IMG/VR virus record: IMGVR_UViG_3300032893_000060
Span: 1-55,388 of that record
Length of the DNA: 55,388 nt
DNA from: a virus
Reading direction: 5' to 3' (one strand)
Under the pieces are notes generated by a model. That model did not search any database. It was not told the origin of the DNA and was given only the letters and a program-made list of their open reading frames with translations. Every line of letters begins with the position of its first letter. The stretch's first letter is position 1. The position numbers and the translations under genes are program-made. Positions 5,434 to 55,388 of this stretch are shown piece after piece.

Positions 5434-5436
5434 ACT

Positions 5437-5452
5437 TGGCATGAAACCTGCT
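5437..5452 (+). promoter_or_regulatory. Sigma-54 promoter of the major capsid gene
   Basis: TGGCATG-AAACC-TGCT matches the -24/-12 consensus TGGCAYG-N4-TTGCW, with GG and GC separated by exactly 10 bases. It lies four bases after the HNH stop, in the only sizeable gap of the head gene block. Transcription would start near 5463, about 130 bases upstream of the capsid ATG. It is one of five sites in this genome sharing TGGCAYG-N5-TGCT. Confidence 0.8.
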
Positions 5453-5594: not shown

Positions 5595-6905
5595 ATGCCG
5601 TCATACTATGACGCTCCAAGCGTCTTTGGAAACGCGGTTGTGGAAGACGTCAACCGCTTTAATCAACTTCCTTTCTATCTTGTTCACAACGAGGTTAAGC
5701 AATTTCCTATCTGGAATGAGTTTGATCAAGCATACGGAAAGATCGACTGGGAGACTAATCAAGGTAACATCATGCGTGGTGTTACCCCTCAACGTTCGCC
5801 AGTCGGTCGAGCATTCTTCTTCCCTAATGCGGTAACGCAGGTAGCTAAGAAGGATATCTACCAAGTCACTGAAAGCAAGGAAGAGGCGGCTGTGATGGTT
5901 CATAAGTATGAATCATTCCAGTTTAACTTCATGCCTTCTTTCACGGCTTTCTGGGAAACATACCTTCAATTCGCTAACAAGGACATTGTTGAGAAGATCA
6001 GTATTTCCAACAATCAGTTTATCGAGACAAACATGTGGTTTAATGCCATCAATGTTTATCTCTGTGGCACTGGACTTGTTGGTGGTGCTCCAACAGTAAT
6101 GGGTAATAGTGCTGGTAATGCGGCTGGATCTAAGACGGCTGCATGGCTGGTTGCACTCACTACTGGTGCTCAGGGCAATAATGGTGTTCTCCAGGGTCTT
6201 ACACTTCGCGATCTTTATCGTGCTGTAATGAATCTTCAGGAAGATTTAGCAGCGCCTCCGATGGAAGGTGTAAGGAATATGCCGAAGGATAACGATGGAG
6301 TTAAGGGTCATTACTGGCTCTATCTGTCGTCCGAAGCATTCATGAACTTCACGTTCGATCCAGATGTGGCTGTTTTGAAGCCTCTGAACTTGGACTTGCT
6401 GTTTAATGACTTCAAGGGTTCGCTCTTTGGCACTACTGTTTGTAAGATCAAGAAGTATCCTATCCGCTTCAACATTGTTGATATTAAGGATGCGAATGGC
6501 AATACTCTTTGGGCTGCTGGAATGCCAATAGATCCTGAAATCTTCGATCCGACAGACAATAAGTGGAAGCCGAATCCGTATTGGACTAACCTCACTAGCG
6601 CGCCGTTTGAAATTGCGTGGCTCTGTGGTGAGTCTTATGCGAGAACGATTAAGGTTGGACCTCCGCCCAAGGAGTTCGCAACCACGAACATGTCAGCACA
6701 GAAGTTCTATTCGATGAAGTGGAACGGTGAAGTGCGGCTAACAGATCAAGTGTTGATCACTAATCCTGATGGCACTACTGAATTGAACGTCTATGGTGAA
6801 AACCTGAAGTTCATCAGCAAGCTCACTCATGGTTATCTAGTAGGGGAACGTCGTAATGCGTTTCCGATCTTGCTTCGTAGGAGCCGTCCTGCTGTTCAAC
6901 ACTAA
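5595..6905 (+). CDS. Major capsid protein
   Basis: This 436-residue protein follows the scaffold and precedes the tail genes. Its composition is that of a structural shell protein: mixed alpha/beta, few charges in runs, 4 Cys at most, no enzymatic motif. It would fold as an HK97-type coat protein of the P22-like size class. The gene has its own sigma-54 promoter and a long structured leader, consistent with the need for very high expression. It uses slightly higher-GC codons than the neighbours, as highly expressed genes often do. The assignment is by position, size and dedicated promoter. Confidence 0.82.
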   Translation: MPSYYDAPSVFGNAVVEDVNRFNQLPFYLVHNEVKQFPIWNEFDQAYGKIDWETNQGNIMRGVTPQRSPVGRAFFFPNAVTQVAKKDIYQVTESKEEAAVMVHKYESFQFNFMPSFTAFWETYLQFANKDIVEKISISNNQFIETNMWFNAINVYLCGTGLVGGAPTVMGNSAGNAAGSKTAAWLVALTTGAQGNNGVLQGLTLRDLYRAVMNLQEDLAAPPMEGVRNMPKDNDGVKGHYWLYLSSEAFMNFTFDPDVAVLKPLNLDLLFNDFKGSLFGTTVCKIKKYPIRFNIVDIKDANGNTLWAAGMPIDPEIFDPTDNKWKPNPYWTNLTSAPFEIAWLCGESYARTIKVGPPPKEFATTNMSAQKFYSMKWNGEVRLTDQVLITNPDGTTELNVYGENLKFISKLTHGYLVGERRNAFPILLRRSRPAVQH

Positions 6906-38664: not shown

Positions 38665-38903
38665 TTCTTTCTCCTTTTAATTATAGCATCCACATCTACT
38701 CCATTCTCTCTCAATAACTCTAACGCCAACTTCTTTTGTGGCGATAAGTAAATTGGTGGTTGTGCTGGTTCTTGTTTCACTCTATGTTGAACCATCTCAG
38801 GACGAGTCACAGTATAATATGGCTTGAGGATTTCATCTAATTCTTTGTCGGATAACTTCTCAAGCTTGTCGGCAGTTAAGTCGGCTAGCTCGTCGATTGT
38901 CAT
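38661..38903 (-). CDS. Small acidic/basic two-part protein, unknown function
   Basis: This 80-residue protein starts MTIDELADLTADKLEKLSDKEL, acidic and helical, and ends with a basic KKLALELLRENGVDVDAIIKRRKK. It overlaps both neighbouring genes by ATGA. The Pro-rich centre (KQEPAQPPIYLSP) may be a flexible linker. Function unknown. Confidence 0.65.
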   Translation of the reverse strand: MTIDELADLTADKLEKLSDKELDEILKPYYTVTRPEMVQHRVKQEPAQPPIYLSPQKKLALELLRENGVDVDAIIKRRKK

Positions 38904-39526
38904 ACGTTAATCTTAATGACTTTGACCGACTCACTCTTAATGCTAGCCTTCACATTAGTCAATTGCTGCATCTCGATCTTAAGCCGCAGTATCTCATCAG
39001 GTGTTAGTGTCAACCCTTCTTGACAGAATGGAACTGTATTGTCTGACTCAAGCCAATTGTCTAGATCACGCCGCCATTTTGGCTGGTCAACCGTTGGTAC
39101 AGTTTCTTCGGCTGACAGTTCAGCACCATCAGCTAGTCCCATGATATACTCAATGATGATACCTACCTTAATCTTCTTTCGAATCTTGACAATCTCATAC
39201 CAACGCTTATACTTCCCATCTGGATCTAGCTTCTCGCAGAGATAACGGATTGATTGATTGATGCGAGTGTAGAGAGTATTGGGAGTCATCCCATCTTCTG
39301 TGCACCAGATGTTGTATCGAAAGGTCAAGCTGTTTCCAGACTGAATCATCTTGTCAATTTCTTTCTTCATCTGGATAGCGTATATCTCCTTATAGTATGG
39401 GGCATTGGAATGCCGTGACCAGCCGTGAGGGCGGTTCGAGACGATCATGTCCACAAACTTGCTGGCTACTTCTGGTGAAGGAAAGATACTGTCGGCAGCT
39501 TTCTTTATTTGTTCATTATCATCCAT
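38900..39526 (-). CDS. Protein of unknown function next to the tRNA-like element
   Basis: The start is taken at the ATG at 39526 (208 residues). An upstream frame reaches into the tRNA-like T-arm (reading LQVQILPRS, the familiar readthrough of a tRNA 3' end) and is rejected. The protein is mostly helical and charged (KKAADSIFPSPEVASKFVDMIV, YLCEKLDPDGKYKRWYEIVKIRKKIKVGII). The C-terminal part looks coiled-coil. No family is recognised. Confidence 0.7.
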   Translation of the reverse strand: MDDNEQIKKAADSIFPSPEVASKFVDMIVSNRPHGWSRHSNAPYYKEIYAIQMKKEIDKMIQSGNSLTFRYNIWCTEDGMTPNTLYTRINQSIRYLCEKLDPDGKYKRWYEIVKIRKKIKVGIIIEYIMGLADGAELSAEETVPTVDQPKWRRDLDNWLESDNTVPFCQEGLTLTPDEILRLKIEMQQLTNVKASIKSESVKVIKINV

Positions 39527-39542
39527 AATATTAAAGTTAAGT

Positions 39543-39654
39543 GAGCGTGGCAGGATTTGAACCTGCATGTATCACATTTCCAATACCTTAGGCGACATGA
39601 TACTAGCCCAGTTTACCTGGTAAACATAGCGTCTTTACATTCCGCCACACGCCC
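39543..39654 (-). tRNA. tRNA-Leu-like element with an oversized core
   Basis: Acceptor strands GGGCGTG (39654-39648) and CACGCTC (39549-39543) pair over 7 bp with one G-T. A D-arm (GCG/CGC, 39629-39645) and a T-arm (GCAGG-TTCAAAT-CCTGC, 39550-39566) are clear. Total length is 112 nt, too long for an ordinary Leu tRNA. A 4-5-bp anticodon-type arm with loop ACCAGGT would read CAG (Leu), but it lacks U33. The rest forms a GTATCA/TGATAC helix, an unusually long variable arm. Degenerate, processed or RNA-targeting functions are all possible. Confidence 0.6.
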
Positions 39655-40044
39655 ATAAATCGTTCCCTCTAGTCTCCACCGTGAAGTGAAGGACGCCGAA
39701 GCATCATGTTCCACACACTAGAGGGATGAGTGGTCCGTTACTATTCCACGAACCAGCAGGAAGTCAGACAGTTATTAAGATGAACTGTCGGCAACTATAC
39801 TACCACTAGTTCCCCATCTAGTGAGTGTTAGGCTCGCACCCTTCGCTCACTCTATAGTGGCAGCTAACCAAGCCAGAAGATATTGCTACCTTGCACAGCT
39901 TGGAAATAAACTAGCCGCTTAGCCTTATATGGCATCCCTGTCACAGGATTCTGTTTTTGTAGGTTTGCAGTGACATGCTAAACCACTTTGTTCAGATATA
40001 GAGCAATGCTCCATGCGGCCAAAATCAAAGATCGTCGAGGGCAC
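39655..40044 (-). ncRNA. Structured non-coding RNA A upstream of the tRNA-like element
   Basis: This 390-base stretch has no supportable frame and is dense in helices on the minus strand. Examples are CCAAGC/GCTTGG (39868-39873 with 39898-39903), AGTGAG/CTCACT nested inside CCACTA/TAGTGG, and a 7-bp GACAGTT/AACTGTC stem (39767-39789) whose loop resembles a CUU anticodon loop. A 9-bp CCCTCTAGT/ACTAGAGGG stem (39665-39673 with 39717-39725) encloses a GATGC-TTCG-GCGTC tetraloop hairpin. A sigma-54 promoter starts just upstream at 40055-40070. It resembles large phage RNAs of the ROOL/GOLLD type in position beside a tRNA, but similarity is not shown. Confidence 0.6.
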
Positions 40045-40054
40045 CTAGAATGTA

Positions 40055-40070
40055 AGCATTTTTCGTGCCA
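40055..40070 (-). promoter_or_regulatory. Sigma-54 promoter of non-coding RNA A
   Basis: TGGCACG-AAAAA-TGCT on the minus strand, GG and GC 10 bases apart. Transcription would start near 40044 and run into the structured RNA and the tRNA-like element. The site lies 49 bases downstream of the small ORF that follows the sigma-54 activator gene. Confidence 0.8.
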
Positions 40071-40118
40071 CATTTTTGCTATTGTATTCAGTTGTATAAG
40101 GATGATACAAGAGTAGAA

Positions 40119-40283
40119 TTACTCATCTTCTTCTACAGTTACTAAAGGTTCATACCATTTAATGTTCCAGAACATGGACTTAGATTCTTTTGGTATTACA
40201 GCCTTTGTTATTTCTGATTCTGACCTAGTGTAATTAGGATCTGTTATCTGAACATCTACAATCACATCAATTCTTAATTTCAT
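40119..40283 (-). CDS. Small protein (54 aa) coupled to the sigma-54 activator
   Basis: The ATG at 40283 overlaps the activator stop as ATGA. The frame runs 54 codons to TAA at 40119-40121. The product MKLRIDVIVDVQITDPNYTR continues to a Glu-rich end (YEPLVTVEEDE). No family is recognised. Direct coupling to the activator suggests a functional partner, perhaps a regulator of its activity. Confidence 0.68.
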   Translation of the reverse strand: MKLRIDVIVDVQITDPNYTRSESEITKAVIPKESKSMFWNIKWYEPLVTVEEDE

Positions 40284-41158
40284 ATTCTTCCTAATGTATT
40301 ATACCGAATCACCATACGTTGCAATGATCTTACATTCAAACTCAAATCAAAGCTATCAACCATCGACCTATACTTATCCCAAAACTTATCACCACCTGGC
40401 AATGACAATACTATCGGTTCTATATCACACTTACGTTCTCGGAGTGGATTAACAGTTAGTTCCAACGTGCTTATCCTCGCATATAGATCTTCACGGAATG
40501 TCCCTGCCTTAACCATTGCTTTCAGATCACGATTAGTAGCAAACACAAACTTGCAGTCAACTGGTTCAATCTCTTTCCCTCCCACTTTCCTAACTGTCTT
40601 TTCCTGGATCACTCTCAACAACTTCGCCTGCACCCACATCGGCAACTCTCCTACTTCATCAAGGAACATCACACCACCTGTCGCCGCTTTGATTAGTCCA
40701 TCTGTTGTCTTACCGGCTCCAGTGAATGCACCACTGACATATCCGAACAGTTCACTCTCGACTAGTTCAGAAGGAAAGCCGGCACAGTTTGCAGCTTTGA
40801 TTACACCTGGACGATTGTTGATTTGTGACTTCGCTATTAGTTCTTTACCTGTTCCTGTCTCACCAAAGACTAGCACCTCGTACGGCGTCTTGCTCATCTT
40901 CAGTGCATCTTCTTTCATCTGGATAGTCTCTGGATCGACTGTGACAAATTTTTGGAGCCACAATTCTCCTGCACTGAACTGTGATTGATAGCGCCAGCTA
41001 CCATCAGGATTTGATACGATGATGAATGGAAGATTGTTTCGTTCAATCAGTATGCGGGCTGGGTCCATGCAGTCCGCACCATTAGCTTGTAATGCTTGTA
41101 ACTTCCTTTCAAAGAAGTCTATCTCACTTTGGGTTAGTTGCTTTGTTTGTTGGTCCAT
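40280..41158 (-). CDS. Phage sigma-54 activator (bEBP-like AAA+ ATPase without DNA-binding domain)
   Basis: This 292-residue protein is the central AAA+ domain of NtrC-family activators: Walker A GETGTGKE (99-106), the sigma-54-contacting loop GAFTGA (133-138, inside ELFGYVSGAFTGAGK), Walker B GGVMFLDEVGEL (151-162), ATNRDL (207-212) and FREDLYARI (221-229). The start lacks a receiver or GAF domain, and the end (NVRSLQRMVIRYN) stops where the helix-turn-helix would follow. It is thus shaped like PspF-type minimal activators. Expected role: open-complex formation by host RNA polymerase-sigma-54 at phage promoters. Confidence 0.93.
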   Translation of the reverse strand: MDQQTKQLTQSEIDFFERKLQALQANGADCMDPARILIERNNLPFIIVSNPDGSWRYQSQFSAGELWLQKFVTVDPETIQMKEDALKMSKTPYEVLVFGETGTGKELIAKSQINNRPGVIKAANCAGFPSELVESELFGYVSGAFTGAGKTTDGLIKAATGGVMFLDEVGELPMWVQAKLLRVIQEKTVRKVGGKEIEPVDCKFVFATNRDLKAMVKAGTFREDLYARISTLELTVNPLRERKCDIEPIVLSLPGGDKFWDKYRSMVDSFDLSLNVRSLQRMVIRYNTLGRI

Positions 41159-41471: not shown

Positions 41472-41643
41472 TGTTTGGTTTGTTTAGTGCAGCCAATAGG
41501 ATTGCTTCCATTATACCTGTATCTTGTGCGTTTATCAATAGATTACGCTCACCTTCTTTGATGCTTAGAATGTGGACATAATCATCTGACATTGGATCGG
41601 CTGGATCTGCTTTGGCTGCGTCAACTTCGATTTCGATTGTCAT
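41458..41643 (-). CDS. Small acidic protein (61 aa), unknown function
   Basis: The start is the ATG at 41643, which overlaps the ligase stop as ATGA. An upstream ATG at 41676 would lie inside the ligase. The product (MTIEIEVDAAKADPADPMSDDYVHILSI, later GIMEAILLAALNKPNNDDF) is acidic with one short hydrophobic helix. Function unknown. Confidence 0.65.
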   Translation of the reverse strand: MTIEIEVDAAKADPADPMSDDYVHILSIKEGERNLLINAQDTGIMEAILLAALNKPNNDDF

Positions 41644-42506
41644 ATATCCTTTCTCCAGCACTTGAATACTGGACACCGTGGTTTATCTTTCATTCCATGT
41701 TTCTGATACTTGAACGTTACTACTTTCCCCCTAAAGTAATCTTGGTTATCCCATATATCCTTTCGTTCTTTGTCTGTGAACCCAGAACCTATTTTGAATG
41801 GTCCGTATATATCGTGATGAACCCATAGTGCACCGAGAGTGTCTTCGGGGATCATGCCTGCGTTACAGGATGAATGCTTCGCTAGCCCAAAGTTATCGGC
41901 CGTCTCTGGATTGGCATTGTGCATTCGTTCTTCGAAGTCTGTGACAACTGCTTCGGCATCAAGGAATGGTTTGAGCTTCATTAGATAACCTTCGCGAAGA
42001 GTGGAACGGCCACATTTATATGGAGCATCAGCGCGGCGGAGCATAATGCCTTCATATCCTTCTTGAAGAAATGTTTTCATCTTCATCTGAAGTTGCATCT
42101 CATCATCAACTCTCTCGGGCCACAGGAATTGATGACAAGGAAAATGATGTTCACCAATAAACAATGCAAGTTCGTCAAGCCGCTCGATGTAAGACCATTC
42201 TGGATGAGCCCAACAATCAAATACTTTATAGATGAAGTCTGGTGCACCATCTATAGACATGACGCCAGATGATGTCTCTTGGAAGTTGTTGCCAACTACT
42301 AGTTCTCCGTCTAAATATCGTAAGCTAGCAGAAGATAAACATTTGCATATAAAGTTATTCGCTATTGGTTTAAATGTTCTACTAACTACTCGACCATCAC
42401 CAAGAACCAAGCACCTGATCCCATCAATCTTTGGTGTCGCTAATAGTGGATATTCTAGCTTGCTAACATCTTCAATGGTCGCTGCTAACATTGGTCTCGT
42501 TATCAT
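41640..42506 (-). CDS. ATP-dependent DNA ligase
   Basis: This 288-residue protein has ligase motif I with the adenylated lysine in PKIDGIR (Lys 26), motif III-like YLDGELVV, motif IV EGYEGIMLRR (about residues 143-152), then motif V with YLMKLKP. The small size is normal for phage ligases (T7 type). It seals nicks after replication and recombination and sits between the helicase and the activator genes. Confidence 0.9.
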   Translation of the reverse strand: MITRPMLAATIEDVSKLEYPLLATPKIDGIRCLVLGDGRVVSRTFKPIANNFICKCLSSASLRYLDGELVVGNNFQETSSGVMSIDGAPDFIYKVFDCWAHPEWSYIERLDELALFIGEHHFPCHQFLWPERVDDEMQLQMKMKTFLQEGYEGIMLRRADAPYKCGRSTLREGYLMKLKPFLDAEAVVTDFEERMHNANPETADNFGLAKHSSCNAGMIPEDTLGALWVHHDIYGPFKIGSGFTDKERKDIWDNQDYFRGKVVTFKYQKHGMKDKPRCPVFKCWRKDI

Positions 42507-42657
42507 GTCGTATTACTTTCACTTCATTGATTTCGAGCTTGTGCTCACTATTGTTTAGTGGACTGTCAAGCAGATAACGCTCTATGTGCTCACAGATTGT
42601 GAAGTTATCTACGCCAGTCACTACAGTTAATTCAATCCGGATTGTTTTCTTTTCCAT
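42472..42657 (-). CDS. Small protein (61 aa), unknown function
   Basis: The ATG at 42657 is preceded by GAGGAAG and replaces an upstream in-frame ATG at 42711. The product is MEKKTIRIELTVVTGVDNFT followed by CEHIERYLLDSPLNN and a charged C-terminus, a beta-alpha-beta pattern. It overlaps both neighbours in different frames. Function unknown. Confidence 0.62.
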   Translation of the reverse strand: MEKKTIRIELTVVTGVDNFTICEHIERYLLDSPLNNSEHKLEINEVKVIRHDNETNVSSDH

Positions 42658-42964
42658 AGTTCTTCCTCGATACAAGCATATTCTCGAAGTGAAAGTGAAA
42701 CGGCTTTTCAATTGGAATACTTCCCTCCCAATATGCAGTTAGATATCCATATAAAGCATGAGTTTTGGCTGATTGTATGGTTGCAATACCTTCATAATGT
42801 CCAGTCCACTCTCCTTTCTGGTTACCAATTCTAAGCCGCCATATGAAACCAGTTTTATCATTTATTACATCGACTGTTACTTCTTCATTAGTATCTGGAA
42901 ATAAGTATGTTGATGTATTTGTTATTCGTTTTTCTAATTCTATTTGATCAGTTTTTCTAGTCAT
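42632..42964 (-). CDS. Protein of unknown function downstream of the helicase (110 aa)
   Basis: The ATG at 42964 overlaps the helicase stop and is preceded by GGAAAAG; upstream in-frame ATGs lie inside the helicase. The product (MTRKTDQIELEKRITNTSTY, later GFIWRLRIGNQKGEWTGHYEGIATI) is mixed alpha/beta with aromatic residues near the C-terminus. No family is recognised. Confidence 0.62.
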   Translation of the reverse strand: MTRKTDQIELEKRITNTSTYLFPDTNEEVTVDVINDKTGFIWRLRIGNQKGEWTGHYEGIATIQSAKTHALYGYLTAYWEGSIPIEKPFHFHFENMLVSRKNYGKENNPD

Positions 42965-45305
42965 TTGTTTCTTTTCCATTTCCATTCTCACTTTCTCCTT
43001 CTTCGTCAGTGTCACCCTCATCAATGAGGGATGATTCATCGTTCATTGCGTCTTTGGTTAGGTCAAGCACTCGCTTAACTTCCTCGTCTCTACCACCACC
43101 AAAGATTATTTGTTGCCAACTCTCCCTCTGTCTAACTACCGCACTCAAGCACCTGAGCTTCTGACTATATACTTGCCCCATCCTTACTTCGATCGTGCCT
43201 GCGTAGCAGTAGACGTTTTGGACTGTCGGTGATAGGCTTGTTAATCTAGGAACGCGTCCCACTCCTTGGACGAGTTCAATCGCATTGTAGGTGACAACAA
43301 TGAATGTTTCACGAGGTCGTACTGGAACTTTGGCAATATCTTCTTCAAAGGCATAACCGCTTTCCTTACGTCTGCACTTGAAGCTGGTAAGTTCATCTGT
43401 ATGGTGTAAGGACAGGCCCACCCCTCCAGCCTTAAGTGTATATATACAGTAGAGCGATTCCCCTCTCTGGAACTTGTCGATTTCATTTTGTCTTGTTATT
43501 TGATCTTGTGGACCTAAGCGCCACTCTTCCGGATACTGGACTAGAACTCTGTCCTCTACATCATCTAATCCCATATCTCCAATCATTTCATCTGCTTCTA
43601 ATCCCATTGCTTTGAGCTTATCGCTCAACGCTTTAATCTTTGCTTTAGACTTTTGCTTTTCTGTAAGTTGTGTTTGACCACCACCCCAAATGAGGGAGAT
43701 GTTGTCACGGGACACACCATACTTTTCGATAAGGAGTTTCTGTATCTCAATAAGAGTAGCTTTGAATTTAACTGCTGCAACAGCGGCTTTGCCTCTCTTG
43801 GTGACAGCTTCGTGCATATCGTGAGCAAAATGTTCCGCATGACAGAATTCTGCTGCCATTGCGAACTTAAGAAGTACGACGAGATAGCAAATGCCCGCGT
43901 TATCACCTGCCTCTTTTGCCGCATCAATCTTTGCTTTCTCTTTAAGGAATCTTTCCCATGCATCTTCATAGAATTTACGTTTTGCATCAGACTCGAATTG
44001 AATTATCTTAACACCATTAATTGCATCGAACTGTGGCTTAACACCCTTTACTCTTACTATCCAAGGTTCCAAATCATCTATTAGTCTGTCTACAGCCGCT
44101 TTATTGAAGTCAGTTGGCTTACTTGGACTACTGATCATGGATGCGTATGCATTCCAATTGTCGTTTGTGAGTATGCTACCCTTTGGAAACCCCAAATGCT
44201 CTAGTGGTCTGTGAGTTGCGACTGCGAATGCTTGTGCTTCGGAGACGCGAGCAAATGGAGTAGCACTAATGCAAACCAGACAAGACTTCCCAAGAGGAAG
44301 TTCATTATACTTATAGATGATTCGTGACTGCTTCGATTTTTTGTTCTTTGCTCCTTGTGATTCATCTAGATAGAGTGGGACTGGCTGAAGGCCATTCTTC
44401 CACTGTAGGTCCATTATTTCTTTGCCATTCTGAACTACTAACTTCTCACGCAACCAATACTCACCAGCGGCTGAACGCAACTGTTCAATGTTTGTAATCT
44501 CTGTGTCGACATTGGGCTTAAGATTAAACAAGCCACCAAATACACGATGTGTCTGAGTGAGGATAGTTGCTTTAGTTACATAGAGACTTTTAATGTGAGA
44601 CCATGTGCGGCTGTCACTCCAACCTATGTCCCTAAGGTGTCGCTCAATCATTGCGACAATGAATGTCTTGCCAGTCCCTGTCGGTGCAAGAATCAATAGC
44701 CCTGTCTTCCCTTCATCAACGATCTTCCTTATTGCTTCTGCCGCTGCTTTCTTTTGGAACCAGTATTCATAGAGTGCGACACTGACATTCGGTGAACGGG
44801 TATAGCCATAATTGTCTTCTGCCTTAAGGATAATTTTCGGAGCTTCTTGGATAGGTGTGCTTTGTATAGTGCGGTTTGTATCGCCCACTCGAAGCGGCGC
44901 TGACTCCACAGTAGTTTGGCTCTTTCCATTCTCACTTTGGCTTTCAGTTCCCGAGCCGATGGGACGTTGAGCTTCTTCAGTTCGAGCAGGAAGCTCAACC
45001 ACATTCTGTCTATCTGACTTTGGCTTTTCATATGTTGTATCTATTGCTGTTTGTACTATCTCACTCTGTAATTTGGTTTCTAATTCGTCTACTTGTTTCT
45101 TGAGAAATTCTTTTAGTTCTGGGAATGTCAGCGGACGATTGGCTGTCTTGGTAATCTCAGTATCAGGGATGCCTAAGTGTCGCTGTAGATCATGCCAATC
45201 TTTGATTTGGTGAAACGAGAATGCGGAGACTATGCGTGCGTGAAGCAATCGTAGATTGTCACGTTGACGACGTTTTATGGTTTCAGGTGAGGGAGGACGG
45301 GCCAT
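42957..45305 (-). CDS. SF2 (SNF2-like) DNA helicase, 782 aa
   Basis: This 782-residue protein has helicase core motifs: Walker A LAPTGTGKT (206-214), a DEXD-type box LYLDESQG (311-318), motif III SATPF (347-351), motif V TLKAGGVGLSLHHTD and motif VI LVQGVGRVPRL (about residue 690). An N-terminal ~170-residue domain carries a basic tail and low-complexity Ser/Gln region, and the C-terminal tail is acidic. Large phage SF2 helicases of this shape act in replication-fork restart or D-loop processing. It is the largest early gene after the ejection block and heads the ligase/activator sub-operon. Confidence 0.85.
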   Translation of the reverse strand: MARPPSPETIKRRQRDNLRLLHARIVSAFSFHQIKDWHDLQRHLGIPDTEITKTANRPLTFPELKEFLKKQVDELETKLQSEIVQTAIDTTYEKPKSDRQNVVELPARTEEAQRPIGSGTESQSENGKSQTTVESAPLRVGDTNRTIQSTPIQEAPKIILKAEDNYGYTRSPNVSVALYEYWFQKKAAAEAIRKIVDEGKTGLLILAPTGTGKTFIVAMIERHLRDIGWSDSRTWSHIKSLYVTKATILTQTHRVFGGLFNLKPNVDTEITNIEQLRSAAGEYWLREKLVVQNGKEIMDLQWKNGLQPVPLYLDESQGAKNKKSKQSRIIYKYNELPLGKSCLVCISATPFARVSEAQAFAVATHRPLEHLGFPKGSILTNDNWNAYASMISSPSKPTDFNKAAVDRLIDDLEPWIVRVKGVKPQFDAINGVKIIQFESDAKRKFYEDAWERFLKEKAKIDAAKEAGDNAGICYLVVLLKFAMAAEFCHAEHFAHDMHEAVTKRGKAAVAAVKFKATLIEIQKLLIEKYGVSRDNISLIWGGGQTQLTEKQKSKAKIKALSDKLKAMGLEADEMIGDMGLDDVEDRVLVQYPEEWRLGPQDQITRQNEIDKFQRGESLYCIYTLKAGGVGLSLHHTDELTSFKCRRKESGYAFEEDIAKVPVRPRETFIVVTYNAIELVQGVGRVPRLTSLSPTVQNVYCYAGTIEVRMGQVYSQKLRCLSAVVRQRESWQQIIFGGGRDEEVKRVLDLTKDAMNDESSLIDEGDTDEEGESENGNGKETND

Positions 45306-48003: not shown

Positions 48004-48019
48004 AGCAATTTGCGTGCCA
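48004..48019 (-). promoter_or_regulatory. Sigma-54 promoter with a perfect consensus
   Basis: TGGCACG-CAAAT-TGCT on the minus strand is an exact fit to TGGCACG-N4-TTGCT. It lies between the stop of 48085-48288 and the start of the 47972 gene, and transcription would start near 47993. Confidence 0.85.
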
Positions 48020-48084
48020 AGTGCATCTCACTAGAAGCAGTCGAATTGATATAACCTAGTATAGGGTTAGTGGCTACTATTTAA

Positions 48085-49267: not shown

Positions 49268-49903
<636 letters not shown>

Positions 49904-50942: not shown

Positions 50943-50958
50943 AGCATTTATCGTGCCA
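50943..50958 (-). promoter_or_regulatory. Sigma-54 promoter of non-coding RNA B
   Basis: TGGCACG-ATAAA-TGCT on the minus strand, GG and GC 10 bases apart. Transcription would start near 50933 and run through the structured stretch into the 50129-50467 gene. Confidence 0.8.
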
Positions 50959-51230
50959 ATCGAAAGCAAAAAGAAAACACTATGCCAGCTTGCGTTTTCG
51001 CTGGTATTTAGGGCCGTGTTCTATTTACCCTTTACGCTCTAAGTCAGATTGTGCTCCGTATTCCTATCGCGTCATAGACTAGCCTACGCCTAAGCTGCCT
51101 TGTCTCACCTGTAGTGGACACACTCACCTAGTGCGTAGTGTTTTCCTATGCTGGCGTCTGACTTCTAATGAGGGTTTAACGCTCCCATTGAACTATTGCT
51201 AGCCCAATGGAAGCAACTGACTACTTGACC
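50959..51230. ncRNA. Structured stretch downstream of the 51231-51608 gene
   Basis: No frame is supported. AGTCAGA (51042-51048) pairs with TCTGACT (51157-51163) over 110 bases, and CTACGC (51084-51089) pairs with GCGTAG (51133-51138) inside it. ATGCCAGC/GCTGGTAT forms another hairpin just before the sigma-54 site. The 23-base segment 51167-51189 is an inverted copy (21/23) of 51728-51750. It may be an mRNA 3' region or a separate RNA. Confidence 0.45.
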
Positions 51231-52565: not shown

Positions 52566-52614
52566 TAGAGAGCCAATGAAATAATAATGACTAGTGGTTT
52601 CGAGGATGAGAGAT

Positions 52615-52630
52615 TGGCATGAGAATTGCT
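52615..52630 (+). promoter_or_regulatory. Sigma-54 promoter of the packaging (terminase) operon
   Basis: TGGCATG-AGAAT-TGCT matches TGGCAYG-N4-TTGCW exactly, GG and GC 10 bases apart. Transcription would start near 52642 and read the small gene at 52.7 kb, the membrane protein, DnaQ-like exonuclease, small terminase and large terminase. It is the partner site to the capsid promoter. Confidence 0.85.
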
Positions 52631-54323: not shown

Positions 54324-55388
54324 ACTTTGACGACTACAACAAACTTTCTCCTACTTCCCAAGAGGACTACATAAACTCTGGTGGAGTAGTAGAATATCCA
54401 ACGGCTGAGCAAAAGGAGATGGTTAGTGACCTACATGCTGAGGCGCGAAAGTCGGCTGAGCCGTTGGAAAGCTTTGCTCCAGAAGATGATCTATCTCACT
54501 CGATCACTTCTGTTGAGCCGCAGATGGGTACTTCACTCTCAGAAGTTAAAGAGTCTGCGGACTCCCCATCTGCTTCCTATATTGACGGATTCGACATTAA
54601 AGATCCACTCGAACTCGTGATTCTGCTTGACGACGACATACGAACTGGAAAGATAACATTACATCCATGGCAAATTCAATTCCTGATAGACTTTTCAAAT
54701 CCAGCCAACATAGCACAGTTTCCTTTTCAAGCCTTGATGAGAGCATGCAATGGTTCAGGGAAGGACAAATACATACTCGCACCTTGCGCTGTTTGGCTAA
54801 ACATGAGATACAGGAAAGCCCGTGGAGTAGTAACCTCATCCTCTGGTGTGCAATTGGACAACCAGACTTGCGCATATATTACACTATTGTGCAATGAGGC
54901 TAACCGAAAATGGGGCAATATATGGAAGTGCAACTATCGGTACTATGAATGCTTACCAACCGAAGCACCAATCATCTGTTACGCCACTGACGAACCGGGT
55001 AAAGCCGAAGGTTTCCATCCATTAGAAGCTGGTGCTCGGATGGGTATATACATGTCTGAAGACAAGACTATTCCAGATGAAATCAACACTGCAATCAATA
55101 GATGTTCTGGGTATACTCATCGTATTCATGTATCTACTCCCGGTGACACTTCTGGTCATTTCTTTGATTTGTGTAGCACGGCGGTCAGCCGAAAAGAAAT
55201 CAAGAATGTTAAGGAAGTAAGACCAGAAGACTATATTCAGTATGTCGTCACATACAAAGAGTGTCCACATATCCCCGAATCAGACTATCGGCGAACTATA
55301 AGGAATACTCCAGGCGGCGAAAACAGTTCAGTTATTAAGTCTCAGTTCTTCGCCGAATTTGGCACTACTGGTGAAATGGTAGTGATTC
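54320..55388 (+). CDS. terL: Terminase large subunit, N-terminal ATPase part
   Basis: The start is a TTG at 54320 overlapping the upstream stop as TTGA, as elsewhere in this genome. Residues 141-148 are RACNGSGK, a Walker-A-like terminase loop, preceded by LHPWQIQFLIDFSNPANIAQFPFQALM. Further motifs are IICYATDEPGKAEGFHP, the Walker-B-like MGIYMSEDKTIPDE, and RIHVSTPGDTSGHFFDL (motif III/coupling). The first ~95 residues are an acidic, low-complexity extension. The frame continues across the join at 55261/1 to 927 and totals about 622 residues. Confidence 0.92.
   Translation, partial: MNFDDYNKLSPTSQEDYINSGGVVEYPTAEQKEMVSDLHAEARKSAEPLESFAPEDDLSHSITSVEPQMGTSLSEVKESADSPSASYIDGFDIKDPLELVILLDDDIRTGKITLHPWQIQFLIDFSNPANIAQFPFQALMRACNGSGKDKYILAPCAVWLNMRYRKARGVVTSSSGVQLDNQTCAYITLLCNEANRKWGNIWKCNYRYYECLPTEAPIICYATDEPGKAEGFHPLEAGARMGIYMSEDKTIPDEINTAINRCSGYTHRIHVSTPGDTSGHFFDLCSTAVSRKEIKNVKEVRPEDYIQYVVTYKECPHIPESDYRRTIRNTPGGENSSVIKSQFFAEFGTTGEMVVI
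55262..55388. repeat. Direct terminal repeat, right copy (identical to 1-127)
   Basis: Exact duplicate of the first 127 bases, in the same terminase frame. See the left copy for interpretation. Confidence 0.95.

Follow-up and report, generated by a model that had tools for sequence, protein, structure and literature searches.

How could a phage make use of a sigma-54 activator that has no domain for binding DNA? The question is raised by a gene at 40280–41158 on the minus strand of the window, by which we mean the whole 55,388-nucleotide stretch of IMG/VR record IMGVR_UViG_3300032893_000060 that was analyzed. The stretch opens and closes with the same 127-nt direct repeat (1–127 and 55262–55388), so that the complete genome measures 55261 bp and is circular or circularly permuted; several relatives carry terminal repeats of 97 to 127 nt. 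Phages redirect transcription by capturing the sigma-70 polymerase, by supplying a sigma factor or polymerase of their own, or by antitermination, and the sigma-54 holoenzyme is locked until an ATPase opens it. The original prediction for this locus was that a complete AAA+ activator core, stripped of its sensor, its receiver, and its C-terminal helix-turn-helix (HTH), lets the phage reprogram host sigma-54 RNA polymerase without an enhancer-binding step, a strategy not known as an established one in phages.

Sequence and predicted structure together confirm that the 292-aa product is a genuine sigma-54 activator AAA+ core of the bEBP clade, preceded by a novel N-terminal module of ~60 aa. A Pfam profile search placed PF00158 (Sigma54_activat) over residues 75 to 234 with an E value of 6.6e-54, in line with the anticipated family, and all 23 members of the protein family match this AAA+ domain. 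The NCBIfam bEBP models also match the core, with scores below their full-length cut-offs, and the closest solved structures in a PDB sequence search are FleQ, NtrC1/4, NifA, FlrC, and PspF. The motifs expected of a complete core were all found and are kept in relatives: Walker A (GETGTGKE, residues 99 to 106), the GAFTGA loop (residues 143 to 148, codons at 40715–40732 on the minus strand, placed by translation and alignment), Walker B (GGVMFLDE, residues 161 to 168), sensor I (ATNRDL), two arginine fingers (R222/R228, FREDLYAR), and sensor II (NVRSLQ, arginine R277). Residues G102, G104, K105, D167, E168, R222, R228, and R277 are invariant in the alignment, and the loop, GAFTGA in the window, reads GAFTGA, GSFTGA, GSYTGS, or GAYTGS among relatives.

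The AlphaFold (AF2) model, built with 23 sequences, has a mean pLDDT of 93.3 and a pTM of 0.80. Its residues 66 to 292 align to sigma-54 activator cores in a structure search, and its best fold matches are all sigma-54 activators, among them FleQ (6j7e; Z 27.1, rmsd 1.5 over 223 residues), NtrC4 (Z 27.1), and PspF (Z about 25). A library of viral protein predictions returned generic AAA matches only (best E 3e-9, 18% identity). Fold and family searches both put the protein in the bEBP clade and not in a different clade of AAA+ proteins; hexamer formation and ATPase activity are predicted for it.

The protein ends ~15 residues past R277, directly after the AAA+ lid, and the anticipated loss of the C-terminal HTH is upheld across the lineage. 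No HTH_8 match at E<=1 was found in the window phage and 15 related phage genomes (16 in total), and a search 3' of the activator stop for a frameshifted or separate HTH, or a C-terminal extension, yielded nothing in any frame. The same C-terminal end recurs in 19 full-length close relatives (43 to 60% identity to the window protein) and in three distant relatives (36 to 40% identity) from other uncultured phages, which rules out a chance ORF, a pseudogene, or a frameshift and indicates that the truncation is ancestral. The other half of the predicted truncation fared unevenly: the receiver is indeed absent, but loss of a sensor is more than the evidence supports, as a conserved module sits in the receiver's place. 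Residues ~7 to 60 make up this module (LxxLLANGxxxxVQxLIxxxKLPYxIxDGKLxDxL) and are modeled as two helices and a hairpin at a pLDDT of about 87 to 92. Neither a Pfam family nor a sequence match in PDB (best E 1) was found for the module, and the structure-search list for the whole model was filled by AAA+ domain matches, which hid the fold of the module. Its role might be to regulate the protein, or it might bind DNA or a partner. Judged against AAA+-only bEBPs (type Ic, FleT-like), the phage protein likewise has neither receiver nor DNA-binding domain and carries the N-terminal module in addition.

IMG/VR scans with the activator retrieved 22 loci, and capsid-based searches added more. Proteins are mostly 35 to 65% identical across the related genomes, and every capsid-positive record longer than 45 kb carries the activator gene. 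Our promoter counts come from 17 near-complete genomes, window included, and the earlier matrix and spacing tests from five genomes. No isolated phage with a related capsid or 620-aa gene was found that would point to a host. A GTDB scan returned one contig of the lineage, L061 (JACTVG010000014.1), in a Methanoregulaceae MAG from peat; to our knowledge archaea have no sigma-54, and the contig is therefore probably misbinned. Many activator matches in GenBank phage collections (for example, CAKLQ, OR84/OR85, AGRM, and AFYI records) look like fragments of bacterial chromosomes, and most GenBank "phage" matches were set aside as bacterial chromosome contigs deposited under a phage label.

If the protein is a sigma-54 activator, on which promoters does it act? 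We scanned the window with the consensus TGGCAC(G/A)-N4-TTGC(A/T), in which GG and GC lie one turn apart. One site has no mismatch (48004–48020, minus strand), two have a single mismatch (50943–50959, minus; 52614–52630, plus), and those with two mismatches include 40055–40071 (minus) and 5436–5452 (plus). Because the loose count at three mismatches was barely above chance (54 versus 42), stricter promoter tests were applied. A weight matrix approximating the published sigma-54 consensus found, above a cut-off of 16 bits, 5 to 8 sites per genome in five genomes, against 0.2 to 0.5 in second-order Markov simulations. The pattern TGGCAYG-N4-WTGCT occurs 25 times in these five genomes and once in total over 13 other gaps; TGGCAY-N5-HTGCW occurs 111 times in 17 genomes, compared with 4 to 17 (about 9) at each of 15 other gaps. 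Occurrences of the latter are ~16-fold denser between genes (78 in 111 kb) than in coding sequence (33 in 764 kb). Sigma-70 hexamers were not enriched (33 found, 37.9 expected). A sigma-54 factor encoded by the phages themselves was excluded, since Sigma54_DBD is absent from all 16 phage genomes tested and was detected in controls such as E. coli and B. subtilis. At the level of sequence, the evidence that these phage genomes hold a sigma-54 regulon is strong.

These sites recur at homologous places, where they head four operons. P1 (TTGGCATGAGAATTGCT, 52614–52630, plus strand) is a predicted sigma-54 promoter upstream of a rightward operon through which transcription would reach a conserved ~610-aa gene, and its position is kept in 13 of 17 genomes. 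That gene spans the artificial ends of the record, is intact across the join, and is possibly the terminase. P2 (TTGGCATGAAACCTGCT, 5436–5452, plus strand) is predicted 143 nt before the putative major capsid or structural protein gene (5595–6905, plus strand; 436 aa), identified by position and conservation; this gene is the most conserved of the lineage (65%), with products of 436 to 441 aa. All 23 capsid-gene loci have a P2-type site upstream of this gene; it lies between −124 and −176 relative to where the match starts and nearly always scores best in its locus. The names capsid and terminase are inferred from conservation and gene order, as family searches returned no family match for either protein. 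An HNH endonuclease gene directly upstream of P2 (4951–5433, plus strand), present there in G002 and represented by a homologue elsewhere in G003, is probably a mobile insertion.

P3 (GTGGCACGAAAAATGCT, 40055–40071, minus strand) lies 208 nt past the activator gene and precedes a leader RNA and a recombination/replication operon. Of 17 genomes, 15 have a strict site here, and the other two have a weaker or shifted one; P3 is found in each of the 18 close loci whose sequence continues downstream, a set that includes two near-duplicate pairs. Its distance from the activator stop is 24 to 45 nt in most loci and about 210 to 260 nt in a few, the window among them. P4 (TTGGCACGCAAATTGCT, 48004–48020, minus strand), the site without mismatches, lies upstream of a leftward operon that holds a helicase (42957–45305), an ATP-dependent DNA ligase (41640–42506), and the activator. 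Helicase and ligase (together 41640–45305, minus strand) are codirectional with the activator and upstream of it; the former is conserved in 17 of 17 genomes and the latter in 15. The P4 position is kept in 14 of 17 genomes, window counted, and from this arrangement the activator should drive its own expression. A further predicted sigma-54 promoter (TTGGCACGATAAATGCT, 50943–50959, minus strand; 1 mismatch, 19.1 bits) falls in a region of small genes. Within the ORF at 49268–49903 (minus strand), positions 49331–49510 consist of low-complexity AGCAGCATC-type repeats. The spaced, conserved promoters at the heads of four operons support the predicted use of host sigma-54 RNA polymerase, and they imply a host with a sigma-54 gene.

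The outlier of the lineage is G023 (L095–L097), which has a divergent activator and only weak sigma-54 sites. Its weaker sites stand where the other genomes have theirs, one before the capsid gene (TTGGCACGAATAAAGCT) and another 24 nt past the activator (TTGGTCCTAGAAATGCT); the −12 element of the former reads AAGC in place of TTGC. Co-evolution with a different host sigma-54 is a possible source of this drift. Upstream of the window's activator, a candidate sigma-70 promoter (TTGATA-N17-TATAAT, 41510–41538, minus strand) matches its consensus at 11 of 12 positions and is not conserved in relatives; it might conceivably allow some early expression of the activator.

P3 opens not directly onto a gene but onto a noncoding leader of some 260 to 700 nt (17 genomes), which in the window is expected at 39570–40043 on the minus strand and in relatives is a structured RNA with a pseudoknot and an AGTAA-loop hairpin. 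Comparing the window with L099–L112, we found a perfect H-type pseudoknot in the leaders of 11 of 17 genomes. Its stem 1 covaries (TATAGTT/AACTATA, TATAGTCT/AGACTATA, TATAGAT/ATCTATA, TATAGACA/TGTCTATA, TATACCT/AGGTATA), and it scores 10.5 to 14, whereas shuffled versions of these leaders do not exceed 10.5. In several genomes a hairpin comes after the pseudoknot; its 7-bp stem varies, and its loop, which ends in AGTAA, is conserved. The window keeps the hairpin and not the perfect pseudoknot. Rfam, even at permissive E values, recognized no family in the leader besides tRNA. That match is a tRNA-like element at the leader's 3' end (39542–39654, minus strand; RF00005, 32.3 bits, gathering 29), with similar elements in L104 (471–579, plus) and L105 (90–163, minus), the scores ranging from 32 to 50 bits. 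ARAGORN missed the window's element, which overlaps the upstream start of ORF 38900–39568; the true start of this ORF is probably the ATG at 39526. Judging by its sequence, the leader seems to be a sigma-54-driven phage RNA of an undescribed kind; its structure is independent support for P3 as a real promoter.

We consider it likely that in this protein the phage has a natural activator of sigma-54 that needs no enhancer, and that it uses host sigma-54 RNA polymerase to switch on its genome in a positive-feedback loop. Its timing and its independence of enhancers are what we infer, the latter from the missing HTH, from the lack of shared upstream words among the promoters (a weak test), and from the published precedents of DctD250 (PMC3844500) and FlgR. 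After entry, the sigma-70 promoter or a leaky or host-activated P4 would supply a low initial level of activator, which would assemble into hexamers in solution. The GAFTGA loops would then dock on the sigma-54 of host RNA polymerase held as closed complexes at phage promoters, and ATP hydrolysis would open them. Opening of P3 would yield the replication and recombination genes and the leader RNA; opening of P1 would serve packaging and that of P2 the capsid; and opening of P4 would yield the activator itself, closing a positive-feedback switch. Having no DNA-binding domain, the activator should not choose among promoters; that choice would be set by the −24/−12 elements and by the activator dose, and sigma-54 genes of the host should fire as well.

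The main rival, which we regard as unlikely, is that the activator serves the phage promoters but needs a DNA-binding partner. This could be a bEBP of the host with which it forms mixed hexamers, or a DNA-binding protein of the phage that tethers it by way of the N-terminal module. FleT, the best-known natural activator without both domains, acts with FleQ in Rhodobacter (PMC7277832); the N-terminal module is conserved; and by eye the protein of the P3 operon encoded at 38900–39568 has an HTH-like stretch. Against such a partner, the neighboring genes have no recognized HTH, and enhancer words shared upstream of promoters within a genome did not rise above background, in a comparison that had no positive control and would miss degenerate sites. 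Moreover, G015 and G023, in which the N-terminus is shorter or different, still keep the system in a weaker form.

It is also conceivable, albeit very improbable, that the main role of the protein is to turn on host sigma-54 genes (stress, nitrogen, envelope) while host activators serve the phage promoters. An AAA+-only core is promiscuous toward host promoters (PMC3844500), yet every near-complete genome has both the activator and the phage promoters, most have one promoter no more than ~50 nt from the activator gene, and a phage dependent on host activators would find its own superfluous. That the AAA+ protein has some other job, such as that of a DNA-replication or recombination ATPase, with the −24/−12 sites bound by another factor, is scarcely credible: the gene does sit among replication genes and the core fold is common to other AAA+ proteins, but the GAFTGA loop, fold matches confined at the top to sigma-54 activators, and sites with the exact sigma-54 consensus and spacing speak against it.

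How does the enhancer-independent activator that we favor compare with known systems? As a protein type it is already known in cells, from FleT, FlgR, and CtcC. FleT has been described as the only known bEBP without both accessory domains (PMC7175178; also PMC3162934). Like the phage protein, FleT of Rhodobacter (Cereibacter) sphaeroides is an AAA+ core without receiver or HTH; it differs in being cellular and flagellar and in working as a hetero-oligomer with FleQ (PMC7277832), whereas the phage protein carries a conserved N-terminal module in addition and serves a viral regulon of its own. FlgR of Helicobacter and CtcC of Chlamydia also activate sigma-54 without an HTH, but neither is viral: CtcC keeps its regulatory domain, and FlgR is the response regulator of FlgS. 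The title of a paper on H. pylori FlgR calls it an enhancer-independent activator (Brahmachary 2004, as listed among the references of PMC9449129). The AAA+-only core of DctD (DctD250) was able to activate sigma-54 promoters from Salmonella and E. coli and did so without an enhancer as well (PMC3844500); it shares the domain content of the phage protein but is an engineered truncation, of which the phage family is the natural equivalent. PspF and the NtrC-family bEBPs have the AAA+ fold and catalytic motifs in common with the phage protein (Z about 25 to 27) and differ in their own C-terminal HTH, with which upstream enhancers are bound. Among phages, PHROG 7998 is a sigma-54-activator-like AAA+ protein listed as of unknown function, and the human gut phage MT121960.1 (L098, 2770–3684) encodes a 304-aa activator-like AAA+ ORF that, like the window protein, has no obvious HTH. 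Its Walker A, however, is altered (GETGTDKE), and no consensus sigma-54 sites were found in the MT121960 genome. Phage takeover is classically represented by MotA/AsiA and gp55/gp45 of T4, the sigma factors of SPO1, and T7-type polymerases. In these systems, too, a phage factor redirects transcription to phage genes; they replace or modify sigma or the polymerase, whereas here a phage ATPase would open the closed complex of host sigma-54.

No report of phage sigma-54 activators or promoters was found in the open-access journal literature searched, and within that literature the original prediction's claim of an unestablished phage mechanism stands. The combination of a phage-encoded AAA+-only activator with an autoregulated, phage-wide sigma-54 regulon has no counterpart there. 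With somewhat less assurance than for the activator itself, we favor a broader reading, in which host sigma-54 RNA polymerase, opened under positive feedback by a phage-encoded, enhancer-independent AAA+ ATPase, transcribes the greater part of the genome in a widespread lineage of uncultured phages: the genes for replication, packaging, and the capsid, the structured noncoding RNA, and the activator gene. This would constitute an undescribed class of takeover, with collateral firing of the host sigma-54 regulon. The sigma-54 holoenzyme is a tight ATP-driven switch that we have found no phage reported to exploit, and its use here would narrow the likely hosts to bacteria bearing sigma-54. As natural analogues of DctD250, these proteins can teach how control is exerted when the activator has no domain for binding DNA, and the family may offer a simple tool for firing whole sigma-54 regulons.
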